Source: Paenibacillus lycopersici (lineage in GTDB: Bacteria; Bacillota; Bacilli; Paenibacillales; Paenibacillaceae). From it: a stretch of 64,000 nt of DNA. How positions within the stretch are numbered: position 1 is the stretch's first letter; every line of letters begins with the position of its first letter. The stretch covers positions 5,685,001 to 5,749,000 of the forward strand of contig NZ_CP048209.1 of NCBI RefSeq assembly GCF_010119935.1. The letters run 5' to 3'. The notes under the pieces were generated by a model. The model was not told the DNA's origin. It ran no database searches and was given only the letters and a program-made list of their open reading frames with translations. The translations under genes and the position numbers were made by a program. Positions 8,856 to 64,000 of this stretch are shown here, one piece after another.

Positions 8856-10613
8856 TTACGGGATGATCGGAAAAGGACCTGGTTCCACGATCGGACCGCC
8901 AGGAATATTCTCGCTCGCGGTCGTAAACGTGAGGCTTGCAACATCCGAGTTCGCGCCATTCGAGCGAGCGATCATATAAACGGTGTATTTCGTACCGGCT
9001 TCCAATCGATCGATGTAATATAAATTCGGTGTTCCGGCGGTGTAAGTGGACAAGCCCGACTGCACGAGATTCGGGATCGTAACGGGAGGAACAAGCTGCG
9101 AAGCCTCCACGCTTTGATCGTCCCCCGCCAGAACAACATAGTAGATCCTATCCGAAGGATCCGTAATGTCGGACGTTATGGAGAACGAGACGCCATCGGC
9201 ATACGCGAAGACATAATCCGTATCGATCGTCAACGTCGGCCCAGTCACGACAGGCGTCGTCGGGTCCGTCGGCGTTGTCGGGTCCGTCGGCGTCGTCGGC
9301 TCCGTCGGCGTCGTTGGGTCCGTCGGCGTTGTTGGGTCCGTCGGCGTCGTCGGGTCCGTCGGCGTTGTCGGGTCCGTCGGCGTCGTTGGGTCTGTCGGCG
9401 TCGTTGGATCAGTCGGTGTCGTTGGGTCCATCGGCGTTGTCGGGTCCGTCGGCGTCGTTGGGTCTGTCGGCGTTGCCGGGTCCGTCGGCGTCGTTGGGTC
9501 CGTCGGCGTCGTTGGGTCCGTCGGCGTCGTTGGGTCCGTCGGCGTCGTTGGGTCCGTCGCCGTCGTTGGGTCCGTCGGCGTCGAAGGCGTTGTCGGCGTC
9601 GATGGGACTGATGGTGTCGTTGGCGCCGGCGTCGTTGGTGCCGATGGCGCTGCCGTTACGGTAACCGGAAAGGGCTTCGTCTCGTCGTTCTTCACTTCAT
9701 TGCCGAAAATCGTCTTCAACCCCGCGATATCGATCGTCGGTTTCTTGGACGAATCCATCGTGAAGCCTTCGTGGAGCGTAATGATAATCGTCTTCTTATC
9801 GTCGGACAGCACGAAGCTGTCCAGCTTCGGGTCCAGCGCGACGCCGTTGATTTTCACGTTCGCCAAGTCAATCGACTTGGGATCGAGCTCCTGCGATACA
9901 GTCAGTTCCAGCTTATTGTCCTTGGCAAAATCGGCGCCCGTCACTTGAAGCGGCGAGGATTGCTCTCTCGTCTGCGCCGTCTGGAAGGCGCCCGTGAGCA
10001 ATAAATCGCGCGTGGCGTTAGACTGCCCGCCGAACGCGCCTTCCGCCCCGCCGGATAGCAGCTTCAATCGAAGCGCCTCCGCAACATAGCCTTGCGCCCA
10101 ATCGGACACGCTCTTGTCATTCGCGCCCGGCAAGGACTTGGCATCGGCGTCTTTACCCAGAATGCGAACAAGGAACGCCGCCAGCTGCTCCTTCGTCACC
10201 TTGCCGGCAGGATCATATATGCCGTTCCCGTAACCGTCCGTAATCCCGGCATTTTTGAGCGCTTCGATATACGGGAGCGCATAGCCGTTTGCGGCATCGT
10301 CTGCGCTGACGTCCTTGAAGCTCGAAGACAGCAAATTGCTATTCACGTCCAAGCCCATGATCAGCGCGGCCACTTTGGCGAATTGGGCCCGGTTCATCTC
10401 GTCCTTCAAGCCGAACGAGGTATCCGACACGCCTTCGAAAATACCAGCGCTGATCATCGCATCGAATTTGGCCTTCGTAGCCGCGTCCAAATCCTTCAAA
10501 TCGCTGAAATCGGCGGACGTCTTCGCCTCGGCGCCGGCTTCGGCGGCAAACGATGCGGCAGATGCTAATCCCAGCAGCATGGCGGTCGTCCATTTTAACG
10601 TTTTAAACTGCAT
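8856..10613 (-). CDS. SLH-domain surface protein with Pro/Thr repeat linker
   Basis: The 585-residue exported protein starts at ATG 10613 with GGGAGGT upstream. It has a Lys-initiated signal peptide (to about residue 25), then three SLH repeats (about 40-200; for example FEGVSDTSFGLKDEMNRAQF and ITDGYGNGIYDPAGKVTKEQLAAFL) that anchor proteins to pyruvylated wall polymers. A beta-sandwich of Ig/SLAP type (about 215-325) and a linker of TPTDPT hexads (about 340-455) follow. The C-terminus is a fibronectin-like domain. A surface structural or adhesion role is inferred. It is divergent from the secreted repeat protein gene and has its own terminator. Confidence 0.85.
   Translation of the reverse strand: MQFKTLKWTTAMLLGLASAASFAAEAGAEAKTSADFSDLKDLDAATKAKFDAMISAGIFEGVSDTSFGLKDEMNRAQFAKVAALIMGLDVNSNLLSSSFKDVSADDAANGYALPYIEALKNAGITDGYGNGIYDPAGKVTKEQLAAFLVRILGKDADAKSLPGANDKSVSDWAQGYVAEALRLKLLSGGAEGAFGGQSNATRDLLLTGAFQTAQTREQSSPLQVTGADFAKDNKLELTVSQELDPKSIDLANVKINGVALDPKLDSFVLSDDKKTIIITLHEGFTMDSSKKPTIDIAGLKTIFGNEVKNDETKPFPVTVTAAPSAPTTPAPTTPSVPSTPTTPSTPTDPTTATDPTTPTDPTTPTDPTTPTDPTTPTDPATPTDPTTPTDPTTPMDPTTPTDPTTPTDPTTPTDPTTPTDPTTPTDPTTPTDPTTPTEPTTPTDPTTPTDPTTPVVTGPTLTIDTDYVFAYADGVSFSITSDITDPSDRIYYVVLAGDDQSVEASQLVPPVTIPNLVQSGLSTYTAGTPNLYYIDRLEAGTKYTVYMIARSNGANSDVASLTFTTASENIPGGPIVEPGPFPIIP
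9247..9606 (-). repeat. Tandem 18-bp coding repeats (TPTDPT)n
   Basis: About 20 tandem 18-bp units (plus-strand sense GTCGTCGGGTCCGTCGGC with variants) encode Thr-Pro-Thr-Asp-Pro-Thr hexads in the linker of the SLH protein. Units differ by synonymous changes and by a few substitutions (A, M, E), which argues for slippage followed by drift. Confidence 0.9.
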
Positions 10614-32897: not shown

Positions 32898-34136
32898 TTA
32901 AAGCACGATAAGCCCTTCGGGCGATCGGGTCAGCGGCCTGCAGCCGGCGTCCGTGACGAGATAGCTGTTCTCGATGCCGACCACGCCGCTGCCGGGGAAC
33001 GTAAACTTCGGCTCCACCGCGATGACCATGCCAGGCTCCAGCGGATTGCCGAAGCCCCGGGCCAGCACGGGCCATTCGTCGACCTCCAGCCCGATGCCGT
33101 GGCCGAGAAACTTGACCTGGTTGATGCCGTGGCCCATGAAATGGTCCGCCAGGCCGGCTGCCGCGGCATCCGCCAGGGACGCGGCGTATATGGCGTCGCA
33201 TGCCGTTCCGGGCGCCATCAGCCGCTCGGCATGCCGGATGATGCGTTCCGCCACGGCATACGCCGCCGCCAGCTCGTCGGGCAGGCTGCCGATGACGGCC
33301 GTCCGCGTCTGGTCGATGACGTAGCCGTCGATGCAGCAGCCGATATCGATCAGAATCGGCTCATTGCGCCGAATCGGCTTGCGGCTCGCGCTCTGCGGGA
33401 CGGAAGGTCCGAGGCCGAGCCCCCCGGCAGGACCGTCGAAGGCGCTCGGAATGGCCGCGGCGGATCCCGAGCCGAGCATGCCGGTCATGATCTCCATATT
33501 GTAGCTGCGCGTCCGCATTACGCCGATATGGCCGCGAATGCGTATTTCGTACTCGATGCGGGCAAGCAGCTCAAGCTCCGTCAGCCCTTCCTTCACGATC
33601 GGAAGCGAGGCCGTCAAGGCTTCCGCCGCCACCGCTGCCGCCGCTTCGATCCGTCCGATCTCCCACGGCGACTTGATCATGCGCACGCCGCGGACGAGCG
33701 CCGATCCGTCGACAAGCGCGCAGCCCGTCTGCCCGCCTGCGATGACCTCGGCCAGCTTCGCGAAGGCCGCGGCCGGCAGAACGTCCATTTCGGTCGCGAT
33801 CGCGATCGGCTTGCCGGCCGGCCGGTCGCCGCCGAATACGGACGGATGCCCCGCCGCCAGCTGGGCGCGGAACCCGCGCATGGAAGACATCGCCTCCACG
33901 GCGATCGCGGATTCCAGCCCCGCGCGCTCGATGCTTCGCCTTACGTAGAACACCGGCTCGCCCTCGGCCGGGATGAACGCATACCCCGCCTGCATCGAGC
34001 CCGTGAAATAATACAAGTCCACATGCTGCGTCACGAGAAACGCGTCGACGCCTTCTTGCACGAGCCGCGCCTGCAGCCGCTTCACGCGCGCTTCGATTTC
34101 TTCCTGCTCCACCTTGCCGATCTCCATGCCGTTCAC
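32898..34136 (-). CDS. M24-family metallopeptidase (Xaa-Pro aminopeptidase/dipeptidase type)
   Basis: The 412-residue protein has a creatinase N-terminal domain (about 12-150) and the pita-bread peptidase domain. All metal ligands are visible: Asp in LIDIGCC and in VIDQTRTAV, His in FLGHGIGLEVDE, Glu in IAVEPKF and Glu in VGIENSYLV. By family it removes residues before proline in the cytosol, but related creatinase-like enzymes exist. It is monocistronic with its own terminator and is not coupled to uxuA. Confidence 0.85.
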   Translation of the reverse strand: MNGMEIGKVEQEEIEARVKRLQARLVQEGVDAFLVTQHVDLYYFTGSMQAGYAFIPAEGEPVFYVRRSIERAGLESAIAVEAMSSMRGFRAQLAAGHPSVFGGDRPAGKPIAIATEMDVLPAAAFAKLAEVIAGGQTGCALVDGSALVRGVRMIKSPWEIGRIEAAAAVAAEALTASLPIVKEGLTELELLARIEYEIRIRGHIGVMRTRSYNMEIMTGMLGSGSAAAIPSAFDGPAGGLGLGPSVPQSASRKPIRRNEPILIDIGCCIDGYVIDQTRTAVIGSLPDELAAAYAVAERIIRHAERLMAPGTACDAIYAASLADAAAAGLADHFMGHGINQVKFLGHGIGLEVDEWPVLARGFGNPLEPGMVIAVEPKFTFPGSGVVGIENSYLVTDAGCRPLTRSPEGLIVL

Positions 34137-34242
34137 GTCTTCCCGCTCCTCGCTTCTTCAAAGGTCGCTTGCAAAGCATAATCAAACTATAGCCTTTCTT
34201 AGATGGAAAGGGAAGGCGGATGCATCGGCTTCGGAAGGGGCG

Positions 34243-34417
34243 GATCGGACGGCCTGAGGAAGTGATGGACGGCTTCAGGCGGGCAGATCGGACGGCTGAA
34301 GAAGTGATGGACGGCTTCGGGCGGGTCGGATCGGACGGTCTGAGGAAGTGATGGACGGCTTCGGGCGGGTCGGATCGGACGGTCTGAGGAAGTGATAGGC
34401 GGCTTCGTGCAGCCGTA
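34243..34417. repeat. 44-bp tandem repeats between the peptidase gene and uraA
   Basis: Four copies of a 44-base unit (GATCGGACGGTCTGAGGAAG then TGATGGACGGCTTCGGGCGG plus GTCG), the last partial. Copies two and three are nearly identical and the outer ones are diverged. They fill much of the roughly 450-base gap between the two divergent genes; no gene is supported here. Confidence 0.8.
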
Positions 34418-34589: not shown

Positions 34590-35897
34590 ATGAAACAACC
34601 AGAAATCGGCGTGCTCGACAGGCCGCCACTCGCGCAGAGCCTCATGCTCAGCCTGCAGCATTTGTTCGCCATGTTCGGCTCGACGGTGCTCGTCCCGAAC
34701 CTGCTCGGCGTCGATCCGGCGATCTGCCTGCTGATGAACGGCATCGGAACGCTGCTGTACTTATTTACCGTGAAAGGCAAAATTCCCGCGTATCTCGGAT
34801 CCAGCTTCGCCTTTATCGCCCCTGCGGGCGCGGTCATCGGCAACAATGCCGTACACGCGGAAGGCTACGCGGCCGCGCTCGGCGGCTTCATCGCGGCCGG
34901 CGTCGTATTCACCGTCATCTCGCTCATTATTAATGCGGCCGGGACCGGCTGGATTCACGTGCTGTTCCCGCCGGCCGCCATGGGCGCGATCGTCGCCGTC
35001 ATCGGACTCGAGCTCATTCCCGTCGCGGCGGGCATGGCGGGCTGGATCAAAGCCCCGAGCGCACCGCCTGAAGAGCTCTGGTCGCCGAATGCGACTTCGA
35101 TTACGATCTCGATCGTCACGCTGCTGATTACCGTGCTCGGCTCCGTGCTATTCCGCGGCTTCATGCGCATCATTCCCATCCTCGTCGGCATCGTCTGCGG
35201 GTATCTGCTGGCCTACGCGCTCGGCGCCACTTCGTTCGGGGACGTCGCGAAGAGCGGCTGGCTGGCTGCGCCGACATTCACGACGCCGACCTTCGAGTGG
35301 GCGGCCATTCTGACGATCGTCCCCGCCTCGCTTGTCGTCGTCGCGGAGCATATCGGCCACTTGATCGTGACAGGGAATATCGTACGCAAGGACTTGTCCA
35401 AGGATCCCGGCCTGCATCGCTCGATGCTCGGCAACGGGGTGTCCACCATCCTGTCCGGATTCCTCGGCTCGACGCCGAACACGACATACGGCGAGAACAT
35501 CGGCGTGCTCGCGATTACCCGCGTCTACTCGACGTTCGTCATCGGCGGCGCGGCCGTGTTCGCGATCGTGCTGTCGTTCCTGGGCAAGTTCTCGGCGCTC
35601 ATCTCCGGCATTCCGGAGCCGGTCATGGGCGGCGTCTCGCTGCTGCTGTTCGGCGTCATTGCCGCTTCCGGCCTGCGCATGCTCGTCGAATCGAAGATCG
35701 ATTACAGCAAGCCGACGAACCTGTATTTAACGACGGTCGTGCTCGTAACCGGCTTGAGCGGCGCGAAAATCACGATCGGCGATTTCTCGCTGTCGGGCAT
35801 GGCGCTCGCCACGGTAACGGCGATCTTGCTCAGCCTGCTGTTCAAGCTGTTCGAAATCACGCGGCTGTCCAACGATGCGGACGCCTCGGAGCACTAG
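34590..35897 (+). CDS. uraA: Uracil permease, NCS2 family
   Basis: The 435-residue transporter matches UraA over its full length: SLQHLFAMFGSTVLVPNLLG at the start, KIPAYLGSSFAFIAP, the substrate/proton Glu in VVAEHIGHLIVTGNI and the NCS2 signature GGVSLLLFGVIAASGLRMLV. About 14 membrane segments are expected. It takes up uracil by proton symport. GGAGGA precedes the ATG. It is alone between a promoter and a terminator, unlike the pyr-linked pyrP. Confidence 0.95.
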   Translation: MKQPEIGVLDRPPLAQSLMLSLQHLFAMFGSTVLVPNLLGVDPAICLLMNGIGTLLYLFTVKGKIPAYLGSSFAFIAPAGAVIGNNAVHAEGYAAALGGFIAAGVVFTVISLIINAAGTGWIHVLFPPAAMGAIVAVIGLELIPVAAGMAGWIKAPSAPPEELWSPNATSITISIVTLLITVLGSVLFRGFMRIIPILVGIVCGYLLAYALGATSFGDVAKSGWLAAPTFTTPTFEWAAILTIVPASLVVVAEHIGHLIVTGNIVRKDLSKDPGLHRSMLGNGVSTILSGFLGSTPNTTYGENIGVLAITRVYSTFVIGGAAVFAIVLSFLGKFSALISGIPEPVMGGVSLLLFGVIAASGLRMLVESKIDYSKPTNLYLTTVVLVTGLSGAKITIGDFSLSGMALATVTAILLSLLFKLFEITRLSNDADASEH

Positions 35898-60959: not shown

Positions 60960-61607
60960 CTAGGTCGCATCATACTTGGCAATAAATCGATCCAAATCGT
61001 AGAAGTCGGCAAAACGTTCCTCCAGCTGCTCCCTCGTCCAGTCCCACCAGGCGATGCGCTCGAGCCGCTCCGCCGTCTCCTTCGGAAAACGCTCGCGGAT
61101 CGGCTTCGCCGGTACTCCCGCGACGATGCAGTACGGCGGCACGTCCTTCGTCACGACCGCGCCGGCCCCCACGACCGCGCCGTTGCCGATCGTGACGCCG
61201 GGCATGATCGTCGCCCCGTGTCCGATCCAGACGTCGTGGCCGATCGTTACCGGATGCGAGCGCCGCCAGTCGAAGAACTCCGCGTCGTCCGTCTCGGCGA
61301 AGCCGTAGGACACCCGGCGATAAGTCGCGTGATGCAGGGTGACGCGCCACATGGGATGATTGCCCGGATTGATGCAGACATGCGAAGCGATATTGCAGAA
61401 CTTCCCGATTTGAGCGTAATGGATGATCGCCTCGTCCACGCAGTAGCCGTAGTCGTCCATGGTGCTTTCCAGGATGCGGCTTCTTGCGCCGACGGCCGTC
61501 CATTCGCCCAGGCGGCTGTGCTGTACGACCGCCGTTTCGTCGATGTTCGGCTCCCGGGTCAAGCGTCCGCGGCGCTTCGTTTCTTGATGGACGTATGTTA
61601 ATGCCAT
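60960..61607 (-). CDS. Hexapeptide-repeat acetyltransferase associated with phosphonate operons
   Basis: The 215-residue protein starts at ATG 61607 ([10 protein letters not shown]) after GGGAGA. It folds as a left-handed beta-helix with hexapeptide repeats ([40 protein letters not shown]) and the xylose/xenobiotic acetyltransferase active His near HASD-like HPMWR. It matches the transferase hexapeptide repeat proteins found in phn operons. The gap of about 230 bases to phnF holds a TTGACA but no convincing -10; it may contain the phn operon promoter. Confidence 0.8.
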
Positions 61608-61862
61608 GCTTGTCTCTCCCTTCTTAACGTTCTTGTTCAAGCTTATCTTGTCGATATGTAGCTGGGGTTAAGGTATTTTGAAGTTCATGTAACGGTCGTG
61701 AAAGAACGCGGCGGTCCGCATCATCGCGGATGGATGAGACGATATGAGGGTAAGACGATATGAGGGTAAGACGATATGCCCGTTCCGCTCGGCATGCTGG
61801 ATCTGCTATGATGGCACTAGACAATTAGCCCTTATCTTCCATATAGAAAGGAGGCGTTCACG

Positions 61863-62357
61863 ATGTACGATTTCATCGAAGCGTTCCGCGCGGATCTGGA
61901 GCGCTATGCGCCGGACAGGCTGGTACGCATCGCCAAGCCCGGCGGCTGGTCGCTGGGTCAGCTTCATGACCACTTGATCGAGGTGGCCTTGGAATATCTG
62001 GGCCATGTCGCCGTCTGCGCGCAGGCGACGGAAGAACAGCCCTCCGGCAAAACGGAAGCCGGCGAAGGCGTGTTCCGGCGCGGTGGGTTTCCGCCGATCC
62101 GCATCAAGCTGCCGGATACGCCGGAATTCACGCCGAGCAACGCCTTGAGCAAGGATGAGCTGCTCGCCGGACTCGACAGGGTCGATCGCGACATGCGCGC
62201 ATGGGAGCCGCGGCTCGCCGCCGTTCATCCGAACATGAAGGTGCGCCACGACGGCTTCGGCTGGCTGAACGCGCGGGAATGGTTCGACTTGATCGGCATG
62301 CATTTCCGCCACCATCTCCGGCAGAAGGCGGAATTGGAGGCGCTTACGGAGGCGTAG
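61863..62357 (+). CDS. DinB-like four-helix protein
   Basis: The 164-residue protein starts at ATG 61863 with AAAGGAGG upstream. Helix 2 has GWSLGQLHDHLIEVA with the first metal His, and the last helix ends with GMHFRHHLRQKAEL with a second and third His. These fit the DinB/YfiT-type metal-binding fold. Family members include thiol transferases, but most have no known reaction. It is the only gene on this strand in the right-hand end. Confidence 0.75.
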   Translation: MYDFIEAFRADLERYAPDRLVRIAKPGGWSLGQLHDHLIEVALEYLGHVAVCAQATEEQPSGKTEAGEGVFRRGGFPPIRIKLPDTPEFTPSNALSKDELLAGLDRVDRDMRAWEPRLAAVHPNMKVRHDGFGWLNAREWFDLIGMHFRHHLRQKAELEALTEA

Positions 62358-62402
62358 AGGCAGGGGCGAAGGCGGGGAGCTAGGGGGCGCTGCTTGGCGC
62401 AG

Positions 62403-62502
62403 CAAAGGCGTTGCAAGGGCAAAGCTAGGCGCTGCAAGGGCAAAGCTAGGCGCTGCAAGGGCAAAGCTAGGCGCTGCAAGGGCAAAGCTAAGGCGCTGCA
62501 AG
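62403..62502. repeat. 21-bp tandem repeats
   Basis: Four to five copies of GCGCTGCAAGGGCAAAGCTA plus G in tandem, beginning about 45 bases after the DinB-like stop. Copies are almost identical; one is a base longer. Because the unit is a multiple of three it is open in several frames, but no start or ribosome site supports a gene. Confidence 0.85.
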
Positions 62503-62527
62503 GAGTATTCGCGGTAATTTGTAAAGA

Positions 62528-63293
62528 CCTCTGCTTGAAAAGTTGCCCAAGCGGCAACTTTTTCGGCATAACTGCCGGTCTCCGGCTTGAAAAGTTGCCC
62601 AAGCGGCAGCTTTTTCAGCGGCATTGCCGGTCTCCGGCTTGAAAAGTTGCCCAAGCGGCAGCTTTTTCAGCGTAATTGCCGGTCCCCGGCTTGAAAAGTT
62701 GCCCCGGCGGCAACTTTTTCGGCGGCATTGCCGGTCTCTGGCTTAAAAAGTTGCCCAAGCGGCAACTTTTTCGGCATAACTGCCGGTCTCCGGCTTGAAA
62801 AGTTGCCCCGGCGGCAGCTTTTTCGGCGTAATTGCCGGTCTCCGGCTTGAAAAGTTGCCCAAACGGCAACTTTTTCGGCGGCATTGCCGGTCTCCGGCTT
62901 GAAAAGTTGCCCCGGCGGCAACTTTTTCGGCGGCATTGCCGGTCTCCGGCTTGAAAAGTTGCCCCGGCGGCAGCTTTTTCGGCGGCATTGCCGGTCTCCG
63001 GCTTGAAAAGTTGCCCAAGCGGCAGCTTTTTCGGCGTAATTGCCGGTCTCCGGCTTGAAAAGTTGCCCAAGCGGCAACTTTTTCGGCGGCATTGCCGGTC
63101 TCCGGCTTAAAAAGTTGCCCCGCCGGCAACTTTTTCGGCGTAATTGCCGGTCTCCGGCTTGAAAAGTTGCCCCGGCGGCAGCTTTTTCGGCGTAATTGCC
63201 GGTCTCCGGCTTGAAAAGTTGCCCCGGCGGCAACTTTTTCGGCGGCATTGCCGGTCTCTGGCTTAAAAAGTTGCCCAAGCGGCAGCTTTTTCA
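62528..63293. repeat. Array of ~15 terminator-like hairpins, 52-bp unit
   Basis: A 52-base unit is repeated about 15 times. Each holds the dyad AAAAGTTGCC...GGCAACTTTT (G/A variants) around CAAGC or CCGGC, giving a stem flanked by T runs on both strands. The link between hairpins is GGCGGCATT, GGCATAACT or GGCGTAATT followed by GCCGGTCTCCGGCTT. The unit is not a multiple of three, so long open frames appear in all minus-strand frames; none is taken as a gene. Confidence 0.92.
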
Positions 63294-63312
63294 GCAGCCA
63301 GGTAGCAAGCTA

Positions 63313-63368
63313 CAAGCAAAAAACCCTCCAGATTCGCGTCGTCCGCGATTCGGAGGGTTCTTTGCTTG
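63313..63368 (-). terminator. Terminator of the heme-monooxygenase-like gene with shared palindromic core
   Basis: On the minus strand AACCCTCC and GGAGGGTT form a stem with an inner CGCG/CGCG hairpin around GACGA, followed by TTTTTT. It lies about 65 bases after the gene stop. The core TTCGCGTCGTCCGCGATTCG is identical to that at 48614. Confidence 0.85.
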
Positions 63369-63434
63369 TCCTGATAACAGCCGGAATGCCGGAGCATCCG
63401 GCCGGGTTCTTCATTTCCGGAAGTACGGCCCTTC

Positions 63435-63935
63435 TCAGGTGCCGGCTTCCGCAGCGGCGGCCTCGGCCGGCAAATGCGAGACGACGACGTTGTACGTCGT
63501 GACTTTGCTGCTGATGACCGGGCTGTTCGCCGGGGCGCCGCTGGATGCATGGCCGCCCTGACTGCTGCCATGGGCAGCATGTTCCGCCCCGCTTGCTTGG
63601 GCGCCGTGACCTTGCGCCGGCGCGGCATGGGCCTGCGCGTGCTGCTCCTGCTGCGGGAATTGCTCTTCCGCGCGGGCAGCTCCGCCGGCCGCTTCGCCGC
63701 GGCGGGTATGCGCCTGACGGAACGCGTCGCTGTTCGTCCACGCATTGAACGCTTCCTCGCTCTCCCAAGCCGTACAGATCCGCACTTCCTCCGTTTCGTC
63801 CGAAAGAACGGCATGCAGCACTTCCATGCGGACGAAGCCCGGGAAGGTGTGCACGCTCTTCGGCGAACGGAAACGATCCACGACCGCATCCGCCGCGCCC
63901 GCCCTAATCTCGAAACGGTTCTCTACAATAATCAT
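63435..63935 (-). CDS. Antibiotic biosynthesis monooxygenase-domain protein (HmoA/HmoB/IsdG-like) with His/Gln/Ala-rich insert
   Basis: The 166-residue protein starts at ATG 63935 (MIIVENRFEIRAG) after GGAAGGAG. An ABM fold (about 1-85) carries VENRFEIR, FVRMEVLHAV and CTAWESEEAFNAWTNSDAF, like HmoA-type heme monooxygenases of Bacillus. From about 95 to 140 the sequence is rich in His, Gln and Ala, and the tail SSKVTTYNVVVSH ends in a beta-strand that would complete the barrel. Heme degradation is inferred, not shown. Confidence 0.75.
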   Translation of the reverse strand: MIIVENRFEIRAGAADAVVDRFRSPKSVHTFPGFVRMEVLHAVLSDETEEVRICTAWESEEAFNAWTNSDAFRQAHTRRGEAAGGAARAEEQFPQQEQHAQAHAAPAQGHGAQASGAEHAAHGSSQGGHASSGAPANSPVISSKVTTYNVVVSHLPAEAAAAEAGT

Positions 63936-63968
63936 GCCGCTTGCTCCTTCCTTCGCTCTCGACAACTA

Positions 63969-64000
63969 TTATGCCGTCTCGGCCTTCGCCTCATGCCTTG
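63969..64000 (-). CDS. Possible C-terminal end of an upstream gene, cut by the window edge
   Basis: One minus-strand frame from the right edge reads RHEAKAETA then stop at 63969. It could be the 3' end of a gene preceding the heme-monooxygenase-like gene. Only ten codons are visible, so this is a weak call. Confidence 0.2.
   Translation of the reverse strand, partial: RHEAKAETA

Follow-up and report, generated by a model that had tools for sequence, protein, structure and literature searches.

The window analyzed here is a 64,000-nucleotide stretch of the Paenibacillus lycopersici genome, in which a tandem array of 52-bp units lies between the stops of two convergent genes (positions 62357 and 63435), encoding a DinB_2 superfamily protein and a protein with an antibiotic biosynthesis monooxygenase (ABM) domain, respectively (Table 1). 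TRF assigns the array a period of 52 and 14.6 copies, with 90% matches, 0% indels, and a score of 1177. The hairpin past the array is predicted to fold at -30.5 and -34.9 kcal/mol (z -7.3 and -8.5). Tandem repeats also occur elsewhere in the window, i.e. an 18-bp repeat (21.6 copies, 9253-9638) within a 643-aa ORF on the minus strand, where it encodes a Pro/Thr-rich (PTDPTT) linker, and a 44-bp repeat (4.2 copies, 34226-34407) between divergent ORFs at 32898-34136 (-) and 34590-35897 (+).

Table 1. Features at the array locus, in positions of the window.
Feature	Position	Strand	Basis or remark
DinB_2 superfamily protein gene, flanking	61863..62357	+	ORF, domain match
21-bp repeat AGGCGCTGCAAGGGCAAAGCT, 4.6 copies, directly preceding the 52-bp array	62406..62503		TRF
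52-bp tandem array (15 dyads, 62539-63289)	62533..63292	+	Orientation matches IS-borne arrays
Hairpin 1 of the first unit, AAAGTTGCC-CAAGC-GGCAACTTT, recurring every 52 bp	62539..62561	+	Fold, dyad positions
Strong hairpin, terminator-like in both directions, immediately past the array	63315..63366		Fold
Antibiotic biosynthesis monooxygenase (ABM) domain gene, flanking, convergent	63435..63935	-	ORF, domain match

Each unit contains a hairpin made of a AAAGTTGCC arm, a 5-nt loop, and a GGCAACTTT arm (hairpin 1), and the 15 dyads are spaced by exactly 52 bp in 14 of 14 cases, which confirms the unit of 52 bp repeated some 15 times that an earlier note on this DNA had described. The same note called the dyad conserved; it is present in all 15 units, but conservation is not complete, as in 7 of them GGCAGC faces GTTGCC, a T.G wobble on the plus strand. 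Similarly, the two loop variants named there, CAAGC and CCGGC, are both found, together with a single CAAAC and a single CCGCC, while the three linker types, shuffled among copies, are borne out by the units themselves. Folding of the linker allows a second hairpin (CGGCA/TGCCG) or an alternative GCCGG/CCGGC pairing. Overall, 13 of the 15 units are distinct, with a mean identity of 87%.

The array is a real repeat. Long repeats can be misassembled, and the array was judged from the assembly, without reads; however, the 6.74-Mb genome is a single contig and such arrays recur at many sites with different variants, including 35 related arrays with separate consensus sequences. An assembly artefact is therefore unlikely, and we consider it scarcely credible that the array arose in this way or as a chance repeat.

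In the array's own genome, blastn returns at least 33 matches to it, itself among them, with 40 of the 47 candidates scored; no match at E<=0.001 comes from 58 other genomes. The search for the unit elsewhere that had been proposed thus finds related arrays in the same genome, in line with the suggestion of a spreading satellite. We covered 1.11 Mb of own-genome sequence (~16%, picked in part for arrays), which holds 35 related arrays of at least 3 units and a total of 273 units, with the largest arrays reaching 18-21 units. The spacing (n = 238) is 52 bp in 210 cases, 51 in 19, 50 in 4, 53 in 3, and 104 in 2. All 35 arrays lie clear of called genes, which, together with 52 not being a multiple of 3, rules out a coding repeat. 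Mean identity is 0.58-0.95 within arrays compared with 0.48-0.72 to the window array, the nearest relative of which is array 922480 (0.72), and as such the arrays have been homogenised separately. In an evenly spaced 800-kb sample of the genome, 7 of 21 intergenic array rows (period >=30) have a period of 52, 155, or 259, three of these seven rows forming one compound locus, and no other period occurs twice.

The gene context of the arrays differs from that of background gaps of >=150 bp. Specifically, 12 of 34 arrays lie between convergent and 3 of 34 between divergent genes, compared with 21 and 37 of 163 background gaps; these are plain counts over the 34 arrays with both neighbors called, and two gaps contain two arrays each. 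The arrays are thus commoner between convergent genes and rarer between divergent ones, which fits tolerance at gene ends and also a role there.

Many of the arrays terminate in ...GTGTGTAAGGTTCTTTGCAAGGCTACTG, the right end of an insertion sequence (IS), an association with an IS4-family element that goes beyond what the earlier note had envisaged. A degenerate pattern of this right end finds 31 sites and its reversed control 0. By alignment (one orientation per array), 28 of 35 arrays adjoin the right end, and not one of 3000 control windows attains any of these 28 scores. Of 33 right ends, 11 have an exact 9-mer duplication upstream at offset 0, and L045 has another just past the scanned span, while most of the 33 have no exact duplication. 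Control offsets give 0 duplications from -6 to -3 and 0-11 at other offsets, because many of the targets are tandem arrays themselves; the clean 9-bp duplications are therefore those of L033, L038, L044, L045, and L052.

The most complete copies reveal how the element is built. In L045 and L047, a CTGCAG/CAGCAG-CTTTGCAAACTACC end is followed by a degraded transposase gene, 4-7 units, and the right end, and the copy is flanked on both sides by CCTAACGAT at L045 and by TCCCGAAGG at L047. L033 has both ends, no transposase, and 17-18 units, with CCATACTCA at either side. Two more transposase copies, at L184 and L185, each have 4 units beside the gene, i.e. 52-bp units lie beside the gene at 4 of the 4 transposase-bearing places found in the genome. 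The array is upstream of the transposase gene, in the reading direction of the transposase. A 197-aa fragment of this protein matches the IS4-family model NF033592 with E 6.4e-20 and 71.5 bits (the full-length cut-off is 115), and its relatives in two congeners (G007 and G013) are above the cut-off (1.3e-58 and 1.1e-71). Matches to the transposase at E<=1e-10 are found in 4 of 22 genomes of the genus, those in the three genomes besides this one being at 33-36% identity.

On the evidence of these ends, duplications, and protein matches, the array carrier is an insertion sequence of the IS4 family that duplicates 9 bp of its target. PMC2266710 describes IS4-family elements with CA-starting ends and with target duplications close to one helical turn in length (8-13 bp, depending on the subgroup), and the carrier resembles these in its transposase family, its CA-starting ends, and its 9-bp duplication. 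It differs in having a tandem hairpin array between its outer end and the transposase gene, the word "tandem" being absent from PMC2266710, and in a left boundary that differs among copies. No intact single-ORF transposase was seen among the four own-genome copies, one of them read only in part: L045 and L047 have a frameshift or stop, and the remaining two are missing query residues 1-31. The element may therefore be immobile at present.

The variation in the left boundary is such that some copies with duplications start inside or beside the array. For example, the duplication GCGATACGC of L038 is followed by TGTCTGAGGGAGGT, the duplication CATTTCCGC of L052 by TGGTCTGCAGCGGAT, the duplication CGTTAATGT of L044 by GGA, and the duplication CGAAATCAC of L054 by an internal end-like CAGGCTCTTTGCAAAGCTACTG. 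In the second array of L027 the duplication, AAGTTTCGC, is 27 bp ahead of the first arm, and that of L051 has one mismatch. Four copies start inside the unit linker, i.e. L038, L052, and L051 at 14-16 bp before the AAAG arm and L044 at 3 bp before it. The 9-mer match is less telling for several copies because they are seated in or near other tandem arrays, and the clean cases of a variable left boundary are L038, L044, and L052. End choice, one-ended transposition, or later loss combined with a chance match may account for this variation. A bolder proposal is that a tandem array forms the right part of an IS whose 52-bp units serve as alternative left ends, such that transposition cuts, spreads, and resizes arrays, with 51-52 bp (about five turns of B-DNA) being the spacing at which a protein binds successive dyads on one face; we view this as possible but not likely.

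The window array itself has no convincing IS end at its edges when aligned against control windows. The best scores (p=0.0097 left, p=0.0133 right) come from matching letters in the 21-bp repeat and in the downstream hairpin, not from the array edges; the window array may be an IS copy with eroded ends, for which these scores are weak. A convincing right end is also lacking at arrays 846491 (p=0.0073), 899124, 922480, 3871623, and 1013898 (p=0.0013), while array 6193841 is the other part of an array that has been divided by an additional insertion, which carries a 395-aa ORF (L023:3437-4624), presumably IS256-like. When rows of 51/52-type period are considered in the same 1.11 Mb, partly chosen for arrays, they occur at 48 loci, 27 with an IS end (by regular expression on both flanks) and 21 without; among the latter, two are the L184 and L185 copies, one overlaps a gene, and some others are parts of IS-bearing loci.

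Comparison with relatives reveals that the arrays were gained in this lineage at the three loci compared. At the window locus, two relatives (G009 and G016) have the same convergent pair, with protein matches 217 and 116 bp apart (the stop-to-stop distance here is 1078 bp), and neither gap contains an array by TRF; both gaps also hold a simple hairpin that is similar, by eye, to the one past the window array. At the acyl-CoA dehydrogenase-ligase locus, which carries array 922480, the gap is 955 bp here and 19-22 bp in 7 of 19 relatives, and a 51-52-bp array is found in 0 of the 19. At the glycerate kinase locus (array 3871623), 2 of 5 relatives (G009 and G006) are syntenic and have no such array, and in the remaining three no partner gene was located. 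Given their absence from syntenic relatives (2, 19, and 2) at three loci, the arrays are lineage-specific gains. In addition, the acyl-CoA dehydrogenase-ligase gap holds other arrays in 5 of the 19 relatives, with periods of 12; 65; 7 and 66; 45; and 49 bp (L219, L220, L221, L231, and L232, from G009, G016, G004, G014, and G013), so that different tandem repeats recur at one or more of these gaps.

Separate hairpin arrays, with a 51-bp unit, occur in two congeners. In G009, one such array has matches at 9 places of the genome, of which 7 give TRF periods of 51-53 or 101-102; these arrays are mostly built around ATGTAnTGTAC-GTACAnTACAT, and one also has a 53-bp AATTCCTGC/GCAGCTTTT unit. G006 has one place matching the G009 array, with a period of 153 (3 x 51). 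Three of the G009 arrays (L189, L191, and L192) adjoin a common hairpin around AAAGTCCGCTGGACTTT, as judged by eye, which is perhaps an end module. In P. lycopersici, L022, L025, and L070 hold a different 51-bp repeat with a GTGCACTACATTGGCG motif, which by eye partly resembles the G009 arrays. Samples of five further congeners (G013, G014, G001, G005, and G010; 200, 200, 140, 140, and 120 kb) contain no intergenic array of 51-52 bp, and G001 has one 51-bp row (L088) that is not called intergenic. Genes were called with a home-made codon-usage script that takes some 51-bp arrays for coding (those of L070 and L151 are absent from the intergenic lists), and negative samples may therefore miss 51-bp arrays.

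Beyond the species, a scan of contigs from 84,980 species, which possibly left out records close to the P. lycopersici genome, found the GTTGC array pattern in only two MAGs, with four contigs coming from a single Saprospiraceae MAG and the fifth from an Elusimicrobiota one; with tandem periods of 42, 82, 126, and 55, these were taken as unrelated. The titles and abstract openings of the literature searched include no description of such arrays.

The stems of the units vary among arrays in a compensated manner. An alignment of 52 units from 31 arrays has two-sided changes in 6 of 15 pairs, amounting to 36 cells compared with 18.0 (sd 3.5) in shuffles, and 89.1% of its cells are paired, so that the compensatory changes suggested as a check are indeed present. 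This alignment omits arrays 846491, 899124, and 1013898 and two units of array 3871623 (uncertain orientation), as well as one duplicate, and it includes two units of array 922480 added by hand, one of which has an incorrect letter in a column outside the pairs. For hairpin 1 alone, machine-picked units give 23 cells compared with 12.7 (49 rows) and 14 compared with 6.9 (30 rows, one per array); in recounts on 49, 30, 34, and 57 rows, two-sided cells always exceed shuffles, of which 0-1 in 1000 reach them, while the number of doubly changed pairs in this stem (2-3) is not above shuffles. Variable pairs change from T-A to C-G or the reverse, and half-steps of either type occur. Since stem changes are compensated between arrays, the dyad has been kept, and both array relatedness and hairpin-templated repair could contribute to the compensation.

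Compensation of this kind, together with the fold of a two-unit piece (z -3.27 on the plus and -3.63 on the minus strand), would be expected of a transcribed structural RNA made of repeated hairpins. We judge this very unlikely for the window array: wobble cells have no clear strand bias (39 on plus and 61 on minus, of 780), which leaves no sign of an RNA-strand preference, a scan finds no promoter-like site in 62300-63500, and copy number is free to vary among arrays. Searches against Rfam give no match at the gathering score in 61000-64000 of the window (two weak ones fall below it) or in L016, L017, L169, and L170, which speaks against a known RNA family for these sequences.

The compensated stems could also reflect binding by a nucleoid, partition, or regulatory protein, the dyads being about five helical turns apart and thus on one face of the DNA. 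The 52-bp spacing in 210 of 238 cases is consistent with this, as are the 51-bp arrays with other dyads in the two congeners and the 51-52-bp period common to free arrays with quite different linkers, although these free arrays were themselves selected by period. By contrast, no binding protein is known, the arrays are absent at the syntenic loci and in the samples of five congeners, and the period could be fixed by common descent with few indels. On balance, a protein-binding array appears doubtful.

The position of the array between convergent genes raises the question of transcription termination, and every unit had been described as resembling an intrinsic terminator on both strands. The window units do look terminator-like, as the stem is followed on the plus strand by CTTTTTC in 15 of 15 units; on the minus strand the tail is CTTTTC in 12 of 15 and CTTTTTA in 3 of 15. 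A consensus scan of 62300-63500 scores 13 terminator-like sites compared with 4.3 (sd 2.2) in shuffles, but all 13 are on the plus strand and none on the minus, and the description as two-way is therefore not borne out by the scan. Among 258 units of other arrays, a CTTTT tail is present in only 33% on plus and 44% on minus, i.e. terminator-like tails are constant within the window array and not across the family.

The window array could still be a functional multi-copy terminator or insulator that separates transcription of the two genes, each unit adding termination, as the excess of plus-strand sites, the invariant plus-strand tail, and the enrichment of family arrays between convergent genes would predict. 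Like bidirectional intrinsic terminators, the window unit has an A-rich stem foot, a short loop, and a T-run on the plus strand; unlike them, it is repeated 15 times beside a stronger hairpin already in the gap, and tails are not kept in the family. Relatives have such a hairpin alone. Furthermore, sister array 922480 (10 units) lies between two co-directional genes whose counterparts are separated by 19-22 bp in 7 of 19 relatives, a position that would be odd for a strong barrier. Together with the lack of minus-strand sites in the scan, these observations make a dedicated terminator or insulator unlikely in our view.

With dozens of arrays in the genome, mostly attached to decayed IS, the window array is best read as spreading, largely dispensable DNA and not as a dedicated switch. 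It probably belongs, as a "free" array, to a family of tandem hairpin repeats in intergenic DNA. Most other arrays of the family found in this genome make up the right part of an IS4-family element, upstream of its transposase gene, or of transposase-less derivatives; the window array would have lost its ends or would belong to an older stock, and its effects on transcription would be incidental. This reading is based on unit homology, the right end at 28 of 35 arrays, the 9-bp duplications, the transposase family, and the absence from syntenic relatives at three loci, all of which are features of the sequences compared. Under this reading, transposition with a fixed right end and several left boundaries would have scattered array-bearing copies into intergenic DNA, and unequal crossing-over, slippage, or conversion would then have lengthened and homogenised each array separately. 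The window array may derive from a copy that lost its ends, or from older free stock from which the IS took the repeat. The pairing of hairpin arms may be maintained by selection acting on DNA or RNA hairpins or by repair templated from the hairpin, and any effect on transcription would be tolerated downstream of genes. Counting against this reading, the window array has no convincing IS end, no intact transposase was seen, and the orientation bias at gene ends also fits a role; moreover, the 51-52-bp period common to free arrays with different linkers is not explained by mobility alone. A host function is most likely absent or incidental.

REP/BIME sequences are intergenic palindromes present in many copies. 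The family described here shares these traits when the two are set side by side by description, and differs in forming regular head-to-tail arrays of 52-bp units, up to 21 in number. Another comparison is with the BOX elements of Streptococcus pneumoniae, which PMC3049150 describes as MITE-like, 67-637 bp long, with boxA and boxC ends and a variable number of tandem boxB modules, and as thought to be parasitic and moved by an IS. On these descriptions, as opposed to sequence, both are intergenic and MITE-like, with fixed ends around a variable count of hairpin-forming modules. Unlike BOX, the family has a 52-bp unit and arrays of up to 18-21 units, ends that are those of an IS4-family element duplicating 9 bp of target, and an array in its transposase-bearing copies; end modules are absent from the window array, and the fixed right end is found at 28 of 35 arrays. 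The window array is best read as mobile, self-homogenising repeat DNA that resembles BOX elements and affects transcription incidentally at most.

These findings carry a warning that terminator-like arrays should not be taken as regulators without comparative data. They also provide a testable system, in which one repeat design, i.e. a dyad every 51-52 bp, is repeated across many arrays, is joined to an IS4-family element, and has been gained at gene gaps that in related species are empty or hold other tandem repeats. With this system, one could test directly how satellites of bacteria originate, reach new sites, and keep their units alike, and whether internal repeats can act as ends for an IS.
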